From assembly GCF_016861655.1 (NCBI RefSeq), contig NZ_BOLN01000003.1, forward strand, positions 62,001 through 126,000: DNA of 64,000 nt, written 5' to 3'. The position numbers and the translations under genes are program-made. The DNA comes from Levilactobacillus lanxiensis (GTDB lineage: Bacteria > Bacillota > Bacilli > Lactobacillales > Lactobacillaceae). Shown here in pieces: positions 7,034-11,985 of the stretch (its first letter is position 1; every line of letters begins with the position of its first letter). The notes beneath the pieces are model-generated. The model was not told the DNA's origin. It saw nothing but the letters and a program-made list of their open reading frames with translations, and ran no database searches.

Positions 7034-7462
7034 ATGAAATTATTCGTACAGTATTGGGTCAAACAAACCGGAATCGGTCTGATTTTTACCCTGATCTTTA
7101 TGTTACTCGGGCACCTCAACTATGCACAGTGGCGCCTGATACCGGGGCTATCGATTGCCGACTGGTACTTTCTGGTCTGCCTGCTGTGCTTTGCCTTCGC
7201 CAAGTGGGTCATCCTTGAAGATAACCGGGATGTGAAGGCGCCCACGATTCGTCGTCGGCGGAAGCGGGGACTGAAGAAGGCCAGTGATGACACGGCCTCC
7301 GTTTATGAAAAAATGGCCAAGCCAGCGCGCGCCCCACGGCTTCAGGCGGCCCCGAAGACAACACTGAAATGGTACTGGTTAGTCCTGCTAGATATCGTGC
7401 TTGCCTTCACGAGCCCACTGATTTTAGGGGGATTTATCACTTATTCACTACGGCACAATTGA
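7034..7462 (+). CDS. Small membrane protein of unknown function
   Basis: A 142-residue protein with hydrophobic segments at about residues 12-29, 40-60 and 117-138. A basic cytoplasmic loop (RRRRKRGLKK, about 74-83) lies between the second and third. AAAAGGAG precedes the ATG by eight bases. The pattern resembles small DUF3899-type membrane proteins, but I am not certain of that family. It is not obviously in an operon: repeat element B2 lies upstream and a long non-coding stretch follows. Confidence 0.65.
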   Translation: MKLFVQYWVKQTGIGLIFTLIFMLLGHLNYAQWRLIPGLSIADWYFLVCLLCFAFAKWVILEDNRDVKAPTIRRRRKRGLKKASDDTASVYEKMAKPARAPRLQAAPKTTLKWYWLVLLDIVLAFTSPLILGGFITYSLRHN

Positions 7463-7599: not shown

Positions 7600-7868
7600 G
7601 TTAAAGTATACGTGAATAACGGGTTAACATGATTGAGGGGCATCCACTGGTTATCTAATCAGATATTGTCGGCCTGACAGTGCGTCAGAATGAGTTGTCA
7701 CTTAGGTTAATGGCGTTTTGAAGATTTGACCAATGTGCTGAAGAGTAAGTAGTGGTTATCGGAGGCCTAAGGGACACAAGTAGTTAGAACTTGGGGGAGT
7801 GCTAATTTGCCGACTGGAATTAAATAATCCACTTAGAAGAGGGCTACCAGGACTGGTGGTTCTTTTTT
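7600..7868 (+). ncRNA. Candidate non-coding RNA upstream of the two-component system
   Basis: The gap 7463-7960 holds no convincing gene. A clear terminator at 7839-7868 (CTACCAG-GA-CTGGTGG then TTTTTT) ends a unit that is not preceded by an open frame. A possible start is the TTGCCA (about 7586) with TATACG (about 7607) region. Upstream are ACAGTTGGA (7551) and TCAGTTTTA (7565), loosely like AgrA-type boxes. Tiny frames in the unit (for example a nine-codon frame at 7629) lack good ribosome sites. Function unknown; it may be a target of the adjacent regulator. Confidence 0.4.
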
Positions 7869-7970
7869 ATGCCTAGAAGGCACCGCAAAACGATTGCAAA
7901 CAAGTCAATTTCAAGGTACATTAGTGGGTAATAGGTACTGTGCAAGACTAGTTGAAAGGGTGTGATAGTT

Positions 7971-8726
7971 GTGTTGGCCGTTTATCTTTGTGAAGACAAT
8001 CCTGAACAGTTGAAACATTATACGGATGTGGTTCAGCGTTACATGATGATCAATGATTACGACATGCAGGTCGTCTGTGCGACAGCGAGTCCAGCAGAGT
8101 TGTTGCATCAGTTGACGATTGACCCGCCGGAGTACGCGCTATTTTTCTTAGATATTGAGTTCCCCGCCGAACAAATGTCGGGGTTAGAGACCGCCATTGC
8201 CATTCGAAAACAATTGGGATTCGCTGAAATCGTCTTTGTGACGACCCACTCGGAAATGGCTTTGTTAACGTTTGAGCGGAAGGTGGAGCCAATGGACTTC
8301 ATCGTGAAGGACCTTGGGCGCGAGCAGATCGACCAGAAACTCCGAGAAAATATCGATTACGGGTATGAGCGCTATACCAATTACTTAAGCAATACGGAAA
8401 ATCTGTTTAGCTACACGATTGGTGGCCGGAATTTCAGCCTACCGATGGGTGATGTTTACTTCGTGGCGACCGCGGAGACACCACACAAGGTCACGGTTCA
8501 CGCTGCCAGCCAGCTGGTTGAGTTTCCGGGGTTTTTGAAGGATATTGCGGATCAGTACCCGGAACTTTATCGAACGGACAAGAGTTTTTTGGTGAACTTG
8601 GCTAATGTGAGCGGGGTCGACGAGGCTAATCGCCAACTGCTTTTCCCTAATGGGGACCGAACGGATGTGGCGACCCGGCGTTTTCATGAGGTCAAAACGC
8701 TGGTGCAGAAACATCTGAAGGCTTGA
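7971..8726 (+). CDS. AgrA/PlnC-type response regulator with LytTR DNA-binding domain
   Basis: A 251-residue regulator. The N-terminal receiver has the acidic ED pair at residues 8-9 and the phospho-acceptor Asp61 in FFLDIEF. The C-terminal half is a LytTR domain (about 145-250) ending in the family pattern YRTDKSFLVNLANV..; LytTR proteins bind direct repeats upstream of quorum-sensing operons. I prefer GTG 7971 because GAAAGGG lies ten bases upstream; GTG 7962 touches that site. It is followed by two sensor genes with short spacing, forming a three-gene operon. No AgrB or AgrD homologue and no bacteriocin gene is visible nearby, so the signal is unknown. Confidence 0.88.
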   Translation: MLAVYLCEDNPEQLKHYTDVVQRYMMINDYDMQVVCATASPAELLHQLTIDPPEYALFFLDIEFPAEQMSGLETAIAIRKQLGFAEIVFVTTHSEMALLTFERKVEPMDFIVKDLGREQIDQKLRENIDYGYERYTNYLSNTENLFSYTIGGRNFSLPMGDVYFVATAETPHKVTVHAASQLVEFPGFLKDIADQYPELYRTDKSFLVNLANVSGVDEANRQLLFPNGDRTDVATRRFHEVKTLVQKHLKA

Positions 8727-8739
8727 AAGGGTGACAGGC

Positions 8740-10056
8740 GTGCACGTCTTTGACACACATTTTTGGATAAACTTGGTGCTGGCCGTGACCATGCAGTGGT
8801 TCATCACGCTCTGGATTGGGGTCATTCGGCCACAAAACTGGAAACTGCCTCTCAAATGGATTGGATGGGGCCTGATTCCCGCCGTCATCGGGGAATCCTG
8901 GGCCCTGATTCTGCCGCCGCTGAGCGCGCTCCTATACTTAATGCACCACCGGCCACGAATGACGGTAATCTTTGTCAACGCGACCATCGTGATTTACTTA
9001 GTCGTGGTACTAGTAAACGACGTGGTGCGGGCCGTCACGATTGAATTGTTTGGTTTTGCCACGAGTCAAATGCCGCTGGTGATTGCTTGTCGTCTCATTT
9101 TTCAATTGGTCATCTACAGTTTATTTTCGATTGCCGTGACGGGGATGCGCCTGCAACCGGGGAACTTGGAACGGCTGGCCTTTAATCGCAAGGAACAGGT
9201 GACGGTCATGTCCTTGCTGGTCAGCCTGGGTGTTCTGGCGCAATTGTCCTCAACTATCATTCACCGGCTGGCCATTACCCACGCGATGATGACGTTTGCG
9301 CTGAGTGTGGAATTGGTGATGATCCTGTTGATCAGTACCAGCCTGTTTTTCTTCCTGCAAAGCTTTTTCCACCGGCAACGGGTCCGCGCCTTGTACCAGG
9401 AAACGTTGCTGCGGACGCGTTATGACCGCCGGATTTCCAATCAAGTCCGGGCCATTCGCGAGTTCAAACAGATTTATCAAAAGCAGATGTTGCGGTTGGG
9501 CGACTACTTGGACGCCAAGGATTACCAAGGGTTAACGGCCTATTATCAAACGCTGAATTCGCGTTGGCAGGCGACCAGCCACCTGGCGGGCATCGAAGAG
9601 GAGGGGCTGCAGCGACTCAACGACCCCGCTCTAAAGAGTCTGCTCTTCCAGAAAATATTGGTCGCACAGAATCGGGGCCTGTCACTGCGGCTTGAAGTGC
9701 CGACCGTTATTCGTAGTCTACCCATGGACAGCGTGCTACTGTTGCGGGTGATGGGGATTCTGTTAGACAACGCCATTGAAGCCGGCGCCGTTGCTGGGCG
9801 GACGGCTATTTATTGTGCTGTGCTGGATTATCCCGATTCCGTTGAGCTAGCGGTGGCCAATCCCGTGTCGACCACGACGCCGCCGAAGATTAATGAATTT
9901 ATGACAGCGGGGTACACGACCAAGGGTGAGGGCCACGGTCAGGGCCTGAACACAGTTCGAGAAATTGTCGATGAGACGCCTAACGCGGCCCTGCAGATTG
10001 CTTTGAAACGCGGCATGCTGTATCTGACGCTAATTTTAACGAAGCCGGGGAGGTGA
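8740..10056 (+). CDS. HPK10/GHKL sensor protein with intact ATPase but no phospho-accepting His
   Basis: A 438-residue membrane sensor. Six or so hydrophobic segments fill residues 1-215, followed by a dimerisation helix and a GHKL ATPase domain. The N box LLDNAIEAG (about 342-350) and the glycine box GEGHGQGLNTVREIV (about 397-411) are intact. The usual H box F.HDYxN reads FKQIYQK, with Gln (about residue 244) in place of His. The protein should bind ATP but cannot accept phosphate at the normal site. GTG 8740 is chosen because AAAGGG lies eight bases upstream. The next gene encodes a sensor with the complementary defect, so the two may act as one kinase. Confidence 0.85.
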   Translation: MHVFDTHFWINLVLAVTMQWFITLWIGVIRPQNWKLPLKWIGWGLIPAVIGESWALILPPLSALLYLMHHRPRMTVIFVNATIVIYLVVVLVNDVVRAVTIELFGFATSQMPLVIACRLIFQLVIYSLFSIAVTGMRLQPGNLERLAFNRKEQVTVMSLLVSLGVLAQLSSTIIHRLAITHAMMTFALSVELVMILLISTSLFFFLQSFFHRQRVRALYQETLLRTRYDRRISNQVRAIREFKQIYQKQMLRLGDYLDAKDYQGLTAYYQTLNSRWQATSHLAGIEEEGLQRLNDPALKSLLFQKILVAQNRGLSLRLEVPTVIRSLPMDSVLLLRVMGILLDNAIEAGAVAGRTAIYCAVLDYPDSVELAVANPVSTTTPPKINEFMTAGYTTKGEGHGQGLNTVREIVDETPNAALQIALKRGMLYLTLILTKPGR

Positions 10057-10060
10057 GCAC

Positions 10061-11386
10061 GTGATTACGGTGAGTCAATTGAGCCTGGGGCTGGCGGACT
10101 ACTCGATGAGCTTCTGGTTCGTCCTGTTTCAATACTACTGGTTTCCGCAATTGTTGCCGATGAAGCATACGTCGTTGTACTGTGCACTGATTGCGGCGGC
10201 TTACACGGCGGTTGACCTGCTAAATCCCTTCACGGCGCACAGTACACTCCTTGGGGCGTTGCCGGTCATCTTGCTGTTAGGATTTGAATTCGCCGTGATG
10301 GGGTTCCGGCACCAATGGCAGTATCTGCCGGCGTTTATCGACATGACCATGTTGGCCTACCTGTTGATTGAATTCATTGATATGATGATGATTGCCGGTG
10401 CGATTGCCTTGACTGGGAAGGTGTTTGCCGCTAGTTTCTGGGGAACTTTGATTGAGCTGGTCATTAATAATATTATTTTTGCTGTGATTGGTTCCGGTCT
10501 GTGGCTGACCAGAGCGCCGATGGAAAATCTGATTCAAGACATCGTGGGGCGCTCAATGGAATACCTGTTTCTGGCTTTCATGTCGGTGCTGGGCGTGATT
10601 TACATTTTATTCGAGTATTCCTTACAATCCCTGCAAGACTCGGAATCCTACCTGGTTTTTCTAGGCGGCATCGCGGGCACCCTGGTGGTTGGCCTGTCGT
10701 TGAGCACGTACATGCTGATGCAGACCCACTTACAAACGGAGCACACACGATTTCAGACAGATCAACGAAAATTTCGAGAGCAGTACACGACGGAATTGAG
10801 CCGGCAAATGGGGGCGGTCCGTAAGTTTAATCATGACTACCAAAACATGTTGCTGGGCTTAGGGGGCTACCTCGCGGATCAGGATTACGATGGGTTTCGG
10901 CAGCTGTATATCGACATTCGTTCGGGCTGGGAGACCAGCAATGCCGCGGATCTGACGATTGAGGACCTGGCTAACGTGCCGAGTGCGGCGCTTCGGTATC
11001 AGCTTTATCATAATTATTTATTAGCGCAGCAGCAGGGGGTCCAGCTCTTCGTCAAGGTGCCCGAACCCCTCACGGCGACCGTGACGACGCTAAAAGATAT
11101 GGGACGAATCGTGGATGCAGCCTTGCCACCGATTTTACCCGTTTTGGGGCAGCTTCAGCCAGCCATCGTGACGTTCGAGCTGAAGGAAACGGCAAAGGAG
11201 CTTCGCTGGTCGCTGACCTTCCCAGTGCCTGGGGAGGCCCAACTGGATGGGCATACCCGAATTACTGCTGATAAAGGAGTATTAGATTTTTCTAATGCCC
11301 ACAAGTTGTTGCCGGCTAAAGCAGTACTGACTTTGCAGATGAAACTTCATTGGGGCCAATTAAGTGTGGCCCTGCCGAAGGACTAG
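10061..11386 (+). CDS. Sensor protein with intact H box but degenerate ATPase domain
   Basis: A 441-residue protein of the same overall build as its upstream neighbour: hydrophobic segments over about residues 1-225, then a dimerisation helix with the full H box KFNHDYQNMLLGLGGYL (His258). The region that should form the GHKL domain lacks the N box (MGRIVDAALPPI replaces the DNAIEA pattern) and has no glycine-rich lid, so ATP binding is unlikely. The start is GTG with GGGGAGG eight bases upstream, four bases after the preceding stop. It probably receives phosphate from the first sensor in a heterodimer and passes it to the response regulator. That role is inferred from motifs only. Confidence 0.82.
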   Translation: MITVSQLSLGLADYSMSFWFVLFQYYWFPQLLPMKHTSLYCALIAAAYTAVDLLNPFTAHSTLLGALPVILLLGFEFAVMGFRHQWQYLPAFIDMTMLAYLLIEFIDMMMIAGAIALTGKVFAASFWGTLIELVINNIIFAVIGSGLWLTRAPMENLIQDIVGRSMEYLFLAFMSVLGVIYILFEYSLQSLQDSESYLVFLGGIAGTLVVGLSLSTYMLMQTHLQTEHTRFQTDQRKFREQYTTELSRQMGAVRKFNHDYQNMLLGLGGYLADQDYDGFRQLYIDIRSGWETSNAADLTIEDLANVPSAALRYQLYHNYLLAQQQGVQLFVKVPEPLTATVTTLKDMGRIVDAALPPILPVLGQLQPAIVTFELKETAKELRWSLTFPVPGEAQLDGHTRITADKGVLDFSNAHKLLPAKAVLTLQMKLHWGQLSVALPKD

Positions 11387-11472
11387 ACGAAGTAACCGGG
11401 GCCTTGGAGTATTCACAAAATCAGCATGCAAAATCGTTTACAGAATGGTTTCGTTCGAATAAACTAATTGTC

Positions 11473-11509
11473 TGAAAACGCTTGCATTTCTACACCCATC
11501 TGATATACT
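11473..11509 (+). promoter_or_regulatory. Promoter overlapped by a cre (CcpA) site
   Basis: TTGCAT (11482-11487) and TATACT (11504-11509) are spaced by 16 bp. TGAAAACGCTTGCA (11473-11486) matches the cre core TGNAANCGNTNNCA at every fixed position and covers the -35 box, so repression in the presence of preferred sugar is expected. Confidence 0.65.
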
Positions 11510-11787
11510 AGGTCTTGTAATACCAATCAATCTTTCAGGGAAGTCGAAAAATAAAGTGATTTTGCGGGTTCTCGACATTGTGAAATTACTCTCAATCTTT
11601 ACGATTAGGAGAAACTTCGCTGCACAATTAGTTTTAACTAACTAAAAGTGATTTGAATTGCTCAATACTACATATTGAGATTATGGCTGATTTGAGTGAC
11701 AGCGTTATCCTGACTACAAACTGTGATTATGTTGAATGCTCTAATGATGCTAGTGGGAGTCGGAGAGTGGTTACTCCGGCTTTTTTT
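11510..11787 (+). ncRNA. Candidate non-coding RNA or very short peptide transcript downstream of the sensor operon
   Basis: A complete unit: promoter at 11482-11509 and terminator CGGAG-agtggtta-CTCCG plus seven T residues at 11761-11787. The region between has no good gene. A 37-codon frame from ATG 11684 runs through the terminator and has no clear ribosome site. AGGAGA near 11609 is not followed by a nearby start. It may be a carbon-regulated small RNA. Confidence 0.45.
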
Positions 11788-11792
11788 GTTGT

Positions 11793-11985
11793 ATAAAAGA
11801 GTGCGGAGCGAGCCGCTTAGACTCTGAGCATTAACGTGGCTAAGGGAATATCCCCGGGCTTGGGATATTTTCTTAGCCGGGTTAAGCGCAGGAGTCTGGC
11901 TCGTGTAGCACGTTTCGGAGGATGCCAGGACCGGGAAAGTTTGGCGAGAGCCAGTCAACCGATCCAAACCAAAATACATACCATA
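11793..11985 (+). repeat. Type C structured element (copy C1), directly after a terminator
   Basis: It starts with TATAAAAGAGTGCGGAGC just after the T-run. Nested arms: CGAGCC (11809) with GGCTCG (11898), AGACTC (11819) with GAGTCT (11892), and GGCTAAG..AATATCCC with GGGATATT..CTTAGCC. Conserved unpaired parts are GAGCATTAACG, GTTAAGCG and GCACGTTTCGGAGG. The distal part has GGCGAGAGCCAGTCAA. Confidence 0.7.

Follow-up and report, generated by a model that had tools for sequence, protein, structure and literature searches.

Two adjacent AgrC-family sensors of Levilactobacillus as candidate halves of one histidine kinase

Can two membrane sensors, each lacking what the other keeps, work together as a single histidine kinase? 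This question is raised by an operon of Levilactobacillus lanxiensis, located in a stretch of 64,000 nucleotides (contig NZ_BOLN01000003.1, positions 62,001 to 126,000; hereafter the window) of a 3.03 Mb assembly, in which the gene for one response regulator is followed by genes for two sensors, designated HK1 and HK2. An earlier interpretation made from the DNA letters, here called the sequence-only reading, had proposed a split kinase with an obligate heterodimer as its simple model. Our analysis makes it quite likely that a single histidine kinase of the AgrC family (HPK10) is divided between HK1 and HK2 and would phosphorylate in trans, most simply as an HK1:HK2 dimer. As judged from sequence comparison, the division into complementary halves is strongly supported by genus-wide retention, by the pattern of conservation and by the fact that the window genome yields no further AgrC-like kinase match, while the heterodimer, the simplest geometry, is plausible.

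Two sensors with complementary defects

The regulator, HK1 and HK2 form a tight unit on the forward strand, with 4 nt separating the frames. Both sensors are present as 441-aa frames and lie next to each other, as the sequence-only reading described them, and the AgrA-type regulator that it assigned to both lies just outside the segment that it discussed. The features that carry the argument are the following:

7962 to 8726, forward strand: LytTR-type (AgrA-type) response regulator, first gene of the operon, with receiver (REC; Response_reg) and LytTR domains over the Pfam cut-off
8731 to 10056, forward strand: HK1, AgrC-type membrane sensor with a dimerization and histidine phosphotransfer (DHp) domain without phosphoacceptor motif and a complete catalytic and ATP-binding (CA) domain (reading frame, Pfam, profile alignment, motifs)
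9463 to 9483, forward strand: degenerate H box of HK1, FKQIYQK, with Gln247 at the site of the AgrC H-box His (profile alignment to AgrC)
9760 to 9948, forward strand: N box (LLDNAIEAG) to G box (GEGHGQGL) of HK1 (motifs in 34 of 34 HK1; HATPase_c_5)
10061 to 11386, forward strand: HK2, AgrC-type membrane sensor whose DHp retains its His and whose CA domain is degenerate (pseudo)
10826 to 10846, forward strand: intact H box of HK2, FNHDYQN (His258, Asp259, Asn262), also an H-[DE]-x-x-[NT] phosphatase motif (34 of 34 HK2, 7 of 7 HK3)
10973 to 11383, forward strand: pseudo-ATPase domain of HK2, predicted GHKL fold with neither N nor G box (AlphaFold, VIA-align, Pfam null)

An alternative GTG start of HK1 at 8740, the one used in the sequence-only reading, is the likelier one and agrees with the N-termini of several orthologues. 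HK2 was sought in 35 genomes of the genus, and 34 loci, the window included, were analyzed; the single miss is a genome that is 72% complete. The regulator gene is present in 33 of these loci, all 33 of which hold its FLDIEFP phospho-Asp site, and in the remaining locus (L088) the contig starts at HK1. In seven genomes (L105-L111) HK2 is followed by a third gene of HK2 type, HK3. Sequence profiles were built from 10 of 34 HK1 rows and from 12 of 41 HK2-type rows (34 HK2 and 7 HK3), and all structure predictions concern single chains.

HK1 carries the ATPase half. HATPase_c_5 and HATPase_c both exceed the Pfam cut-off in the window protein, and both models are matched at E 0.01 by all ten members tested (10 of 34). 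Aligned with AgrC of Staphylococcus aureus (PDB 6e52; E 7e-34), the HK1 profile places F-K-Q-x-Y-Q-K on the AgrC segment F-R-H-D-Y-V-N, and LDNAIEA and the G box on their AgrC counterparts, in agreement with the claim that the first sensor has intact N and G boxes and Gln in place of His. An H box elsewhere in HK1 is ruled out, FKQIYQK being in register with the AgrC box, and the H boxes of both sensors align to the same AgrC site. Motif tests find [LIVMF]DNAxE and GxGL in 34 of 34 HK1 proteins and FxH[DE]xx[NT] in none. Site 247 holds Q in 24 orthologues, R in five and H in five; site 248 is never D or E and site 251 never N or T in the 34, all three partners being kept in HK2. Around these varying sites (247, 248 and 251), residues F245, Y249, Q250, Q252, M253, L254, L256, Y259 and L260 are invariant. 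Judged by its residues, the HK1 helix is retained and its chemistry is not, and a varying site in an otherwise invariant helix is what would be expected if the helix still dimerises and is no longer phosphorylated. The protein is encoded in one frame in 34 of 34 loci, and AgrC is the best PDB match of its predicted structure too.

HK2 carries the phosphoacceptor half. No Pfam family exceeds its cut-off in the window protein, nor is any matched at E 0.01 in the 12 HK2-type members tested (12 of 41). The HK2 profile nevertheless aligns with AgrC (6e52; E 3e-9): its F-x-H-D-Y-Q-N falls on the H box of AgrC, and the N and G boxes of AgrC find no counterpart in it. Across HK2 and HK3, H-D-Y-Q-N and the phosphatase motif H-[DE]-x-x-[NT] each occur in 41 of 41 proteins, the His, Asp and Asn of the HK2 H box being invariant, the N box occurs in 0 of 41, and GxGL in one of 41 (somewhere in the last 150 residues). 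Neither protein alone is therefore a complete HPK10 kinase by these motif tests, the H box being found only in HK2 and HK3 and the N box only in HK1.

The AlphaFold model of HK2, computed from 12 rows, has a mean predicted local distance difference test score (pLDDT) of 71.8, with blocks of 73-87 over residues 301-440 and values below 50 at 256-296, and its C-terminus forms a GHKL-like sandwich. Among PDB matches, Foldseek ranks the AgrC kinase chains 6e52 and 6e95 first, with the AgrC ATP-binding domain 4bxi after them; VIA-align superposes the C-terminal domain on 6e52, 4bxi and 6e95 with Z 14.7-14.8 and root-mean-square deviations of 2.2-2.9 over 124-138 residues, at 10-11% identity. The tail of HK2 is thus predicted to keep the AgrC ATP-binding fold without its catalytic residues. 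This modifies the earlier description of the second sensor: the H box is kept and the N and G boxes are lost as sequence, though by prediction the ATPase fold persists. A truncated or misannotated HK2 is ruled out by the predicted C-terminal fold, with its pLDDT of 73-87 over 301-440. A single frame encodes HK2 in 33 of 34 loci; in G213 it is divided between two frames.

Retention, selection and origin of the pair

In each of the 34 loci, drawn from 35 genomes of the genus, the genes for HK1 and HK2 are neighbours. The sequence-only reading had proposed to check whether orthologous pairs keep their complementary losses and always occur together, and they do so here: adjacency holds in 34 of the 35 genomes, the H motif is found in 0 of 34 HK1 and the N box in 0 of 41 HK2 and HK3.

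The pair was compared with 23 related frames at the 22 best-scoring non-genus loci of the HK1 protein search, a set chosen by score and not at random; one frame (L029, 319 aa), cut by the locus edge, was left out, and one of the remaining 22 (L019) has only 259 aa. All 22 full frames carry the H motif and GxGL, with a strict N-box pattern in 21 and LDNAID in one. The outside kinases hold both halves, and the losses therefore look specific to the genus pair. In a search of 397 genomes of the family, 25 genus genomes are matched by the HK2 profile, none with an E-value above 6e-198, and the best match in a genome outside the genus reaches only 7e-28, weaker matches not all having been read. In a 53-row tree of sequences from 14 of 34 loci and 21 of 23 outside frames, HK1 forms one clade (100/99), HK2 and HK3 together another (100/100), and all outside kinases fall on one side of a 98/88 branch. 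The HK2 stem is long, and HK2 and HK3 are not cleanly sorted by position. A single duplication on the stem of the genus, followed by complementary loss, fits this tree, in which the root was not inferred.

Selection was followed through pairwise nonsynonymous divergence (dN), averaged over genomes with L111 dropped, and through the ratio of nonsynonymous to synonymous divergence (dN/dS), taken as sum over sum from 6-15 unsaturated pairs per region. Mean dN in the sensor, DHp and CA regions is 0.248, 0.195 and 0.234 for HK1 and 0.347, 0.132 and 0.418 for HK2; the corresponding shares of invariant positions are 23%, 37% and 33% for HK1 and 10%, 53% and 13% for HK2. The DHp is the most conserved part of HK2 and, by dN, its CA the least, and, for each half, the protein in which it still works shows the better conservation, HK1 for the CA and HK2 for the DHp. 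All three regions of both proteins have dN/dS of 0.03-0.09, from which we conclude that HK1 and HK2 are both maintained. Pseudogene decay is largely ruled out by these ratios and by the intact frames.

Locus setting, small frames and a structured RNA candidate

Outside the sensor genes, three features of the window were delimited:

7894 to 7922, forward strand: probable sigma-A promoter of the operon, TTGCAA, 17 bp, TACATT (read from sequence)
11473 to 11509, forward strand: promoter of the RNA candidate, a cre-like site TGAAAACGCTTGCA overlapping the -35 element TTGCAT, 16 bp, -10 element TATACT (read from sequence)
11516 to 11787, forward strand: structured noncoding RNA candidate with a Rho-independent terminator at 11759-11787, conserved behind HK2 or HK3 in 34 of 34 genomes

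The putative operon promoter recurs as TTGnA, 17-19 bp, TA[CT]ATT 5' of the regulator in 32 of 33 loci, and in the window a weak cre-like site AAAACGATTGCA overlaps its -35 element (region 7880-7922). Both AAAACGATTGCA and TGAAAACGCTTGCA are called cre-like against the consensus of the catabolite-responsive element (cre); given these sites, the operon and the downstream RNA may both be under carbon catabolite control. No repeat of the kind bound by LytTR regulators was found 5' of the operon: a repeat search of 7700-8000 gave none, and none was recognized by eye in two aligned promoters. In most loci reaching that far, the operon is flanked on one side by what we take to be a greA-like gene and on the other by a presumed pseudouridine-synthase/UspA-like pair. 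A small protein of 142 aa (7034-7462), with no Pfam family over cut-off, is encoded just 5' of the operon in most loci of the genus. The closest named relatives at the locus are Levilactobacillus mulengensis and Levilactobacillus wangkuiensis, whose HK2 proteins are 96% identical to that of the window.

Insertions were seen at two loci. The regulator gene of G204 holds an IS256-like transposase frame of 391 aa (L086, 9054-10383); the frames of HK1 and HK2 are open there, and this HK1 has His at the degenerate site. In G224 an IS200/IS605-like element with frames of 156 and 429 aa lies between regulator and HK1 (L084, 4646-6672).

The whole conserved block behind the kinase genes, promoter included, extends from 11471 to 11787, and the cre-like core GAAANCGCTTGCA is found with at most one mismatch at the RNA promoter in 34 of 34 loci. 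RNAalifold proposes 40 pairs, 19 of them with changes on both sides. Over 27 of the 34 sequences, 93.9% of cells are paired, compared with 88.1% after shuffling. Not one of the five measures was equalled by any of 500 shuffles, and slid versions all score lower, with the reservation that the structure was derived from the same alignment as tested and that related sequences inflate such counts. A model of the 3' part detects a single copy per genome in 34 of the 35 genus genomes, always at this position (28 of these 34 sequences went into the model itself), and in a sample of 201 genomes of the family it matches eight, all of this genus. Rfam gives no match at or near the gathering score, which rules out the RNA candidate as a known family. 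The RNA is linked to the kinase by position only. The motif TTCACAAA stands at 11412-11419, after the last kinase gene, in 32 of 34 loci, and the core TTGTGAA of its reverse complement lies within the RNA at 11574-11584 in 30 of 34, both occurring in 29; they are a possible pairing or binding element.

The sequence-only reading had seen no peptide pheromone gene, and wider searches point the same way. AgrB has no match in the 35 genus genomes, a result with a weak control, the model having matched once, and never over cut-off, in 14 control genomes. A C39 peptidase has no match in the window genome and is matched in six of the 35 genus genomes, over cut-off in five. Small frames of 18-70 aa in the upstream 250 nt include none recurring in more than seven genomes. 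Within the downstream 900 nt, the most widespread, present in up to 22 of 34 loci, run antisense to the promoter of the RNA, and one sense frame, MLNALMMLVGVGEWLLRLF..., at about 11723-11830, spans the 3' end of the RNA and its terminator and recurs in 18 of 34 loci. Recurrence of both downstream frames probably reflects conservation of the DNA and does not show peptides, although MLNALMMLVGVGEWLLRLF... is possible as a hydrophobic peptide. A classical peptide pheromone is unlikely.

Mechanism, rival explanations and known split kinases

In the proposed mechanism, a complete kinase would have been duplicated, and complementary loss in the two copies would have produced HK1 and HK2. HK1 would bind ATP and offer no phosphoacceptor; HK2 would offer His258 and be unable to use ATP. 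His258 of HK2 would then receive phosphate from the catalytic domain of HK1, the simplest setting being a dimer of the two formed through the conserved DHp helices, and phosphorylated HK2 would hand it on to the LytTR regulator, at its Asp. While free of active HK1, HK2 may also serve as phosphatase of the regulator, since H-[DE]-x-x-[NT] is given as a phosphatase motif (PMC3591291) and only HK2 has it; the HK1:HK2 ratio would in that case set the threshold. The AND gate on two inputs suggested by the sequence-only reading is one possible logic among several and is not implied by the anatomy, to which OR, single-sensor and ratio control fit equally. In the seven genomes with HK3, one catalytic subunit may serve two phosphoacceptor sensors.

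In the window genome the HK1 protein search matches only HK1 and HK2 and no other AgrC-like kinase, so that the CA of HK1 has one obvious acceptor and the His of HK2 one obvious donor. PF14501 gives six matches, HK1 being the best, and the two of the other five that were read were taken for HisKA-type kinases. LytTR is found three times; the two occurrences other than the regulator lie in open frames of 172 and 183 aa, a length that cannot accommodate both REC and LytTR.

A split kinase need not be a heterodimer. Homodimers of HK1 could phosphorylate homodimers of HK2 in passing, like CheA4 and CheA3 of Rhodobacter sphaeroides, a pair of atypical proteins whose binding is transient and of which one phosphorylates the other (PMC3591291), and the DHp helices conserved in both HK1 and HK2 could well self-dimerise. 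We consider this arrangement unlikely on two indirect grounds: HK1 retains its full sensor domain and the invariant helix frame of its H box, which exceeds the needs of a free catalytic partner, and the two genes are neighbours, separated in the window by 4 nt. The pair might instead be no kinase at all, with HK2 chiefly a phosphatase or regulatory subunit and HK1 acting elsewhere. Such a role would suit the phosphatase motif of HK2 and has a precedent in a pseudokinase modulator, a laboratory-evolved ChrS variant that heterodimerises with HrrS (PMC9491836); yet HK1 keeps its N and G boxes in 34 of 34 cases while the window genome shows no other AgrC-like His acceptor, and the His, Asp and Asn of HK2 are all invariant, which makes this explanation very improbable. 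Less credible still is a kinase pair on its way to loss. The broken regulators of G204 and G219 and the two frames of HK2 in G213 could be read in that sense, but dN/dS stays at 0.03-0.09 in all regions, HK1 is in one frame in 34 of 34 loci and HK2 in 33, and the losses are complementary instead of random, so that decay is largely refuted by conservation.

Several observations weigh against a split kinase of HK1 and HK2 or narrow its support. His stands at HK1 site 247 in five of 34 orthologues, a finding that the sequence-only reading had named as refuting its model. In a tree of HK1 built without the H box, the Q, R and H states need at least five changes, at least two touching His and three touching Arg, and gained and retained His are indistinguishable because this tree is unrooted. 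The His does not restore a phosphoacceptor box, because the acidic and Asn/Thr partners are missing in 34 of 34 and no H-[DE]-x-x-[NT] is re-formed; in our judgement, resting on these residues, the five proteins do not refute the split model. The HK1 model is weak (mean pLDDT 60.9). The DHp of HK1 is at least as conserved as its CA, slightly more so, and the dN/dS of the HK2 CA equals that of its DHp (0.062) in the few close pairs; the conservation contrast is clear only for HK2 and over all pairs. The 53-row tree has long branches, two of which, among the outside rows, the program flags as meeting, and inheritance in a single genus is a limited set of independent trials. Three of the eight genus genomes in the HK1 protein search hold a third HK1-like match (HK3 in G111), which leaves room for other partners in those genomes. 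With an interrupted regulator in G204 (L086) and one in two frames in G219 (L109), some strains may be able to do without the pathway.

If HK1 and HK2 are a split kinase, this would be a membrane-receptor case of a split bifunctional kinase, in food bacteria, and evolution appears to have fixed across a genus the mixing experiment that separates cis from trans phosphorylation, which makes direction, subunit roles and signal logic testable with native proteins. It is also a warning for annotation: HK2, for which no Pfam family was found, is probably a real signaling subunit. A more far-reaching interpretation, which we put forward tentatively and with considerable doubt, is an obligately heteromeric membrane receptor kinase of the AgrC family, present throughout the genus and derived by duplication with complementary loss, without a peptide pheromone of known type, that would act on the new structured RNA behind it in an RNAIII-like arrangement of separate origin; one sensor would gate ATP use and the other phosphoacceptance and phosphatase activity, and seven genomes would run three sensors on one catalytic subunit.

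Split kinases are already known, and an AgrC-family version made from duplicated sensors would be a new variation; neither an AgrC-family split kinase nor this pair is described in the literature searched, which covers few subscription papers. In Mycobacterium tuberculosis, Rv0600c and Rv0601c are reportedly separate ATP-binding and phosphoacceptor proteins with one regulator, derived from one kinase gene cut in two and not from two complete sensors. Complementation in mixed AgrC dimers is reportedly the subject of Cisar et al. (2009). The mixing of complementary histidine-kinase mutants is a laboratory assay for cis versus trans phosphorylation (PMC5956149). According to PMC3591291, an estimated 1.7% of HisKA proteins are potentially split and bifunctional, and modeling indicates that split bifunctional kinases can respond ultrasensitively or bistably.

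AgrC of S. aureus resembles HK1 and HK2 in having a membrane sensor, a DHp with the F-[RK]-H-D-Y motif, a GHKL catalytic domain and a LytTR partner regulator, and it is the best PDB match of both; it differs in being one complete chain that dimerises and binds an autoinducing peptide (AIP) ligand (PMC6755735), whereas here two chains share the functions and the genus genomes gave no AgrB match. Hik36 and Hik43 of Synechocystis are likewise described as a split histidine kinase with one regulator, Rre6 (PMC7656254), although they arose from a cheA homologue divided into two genes and not from duplicated sensors with complementary loss. CheA3 and CheA4 of R. sphaeroides have ATP binding and phosphoacceptor on two proteins, with phosphatase activity on the phosphoacceptor protein (PMC3591291), and on motif evidence HK1 and HK2 would share this two-protein division of functions. 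CheA3 and CheA4 are chemotaxis kinases that lack whole domains, whereas HK1 and HK2 are membrane sensors of full length in which the losses are point-wise and a pseudo-ATPase fold is predicted to be kept.

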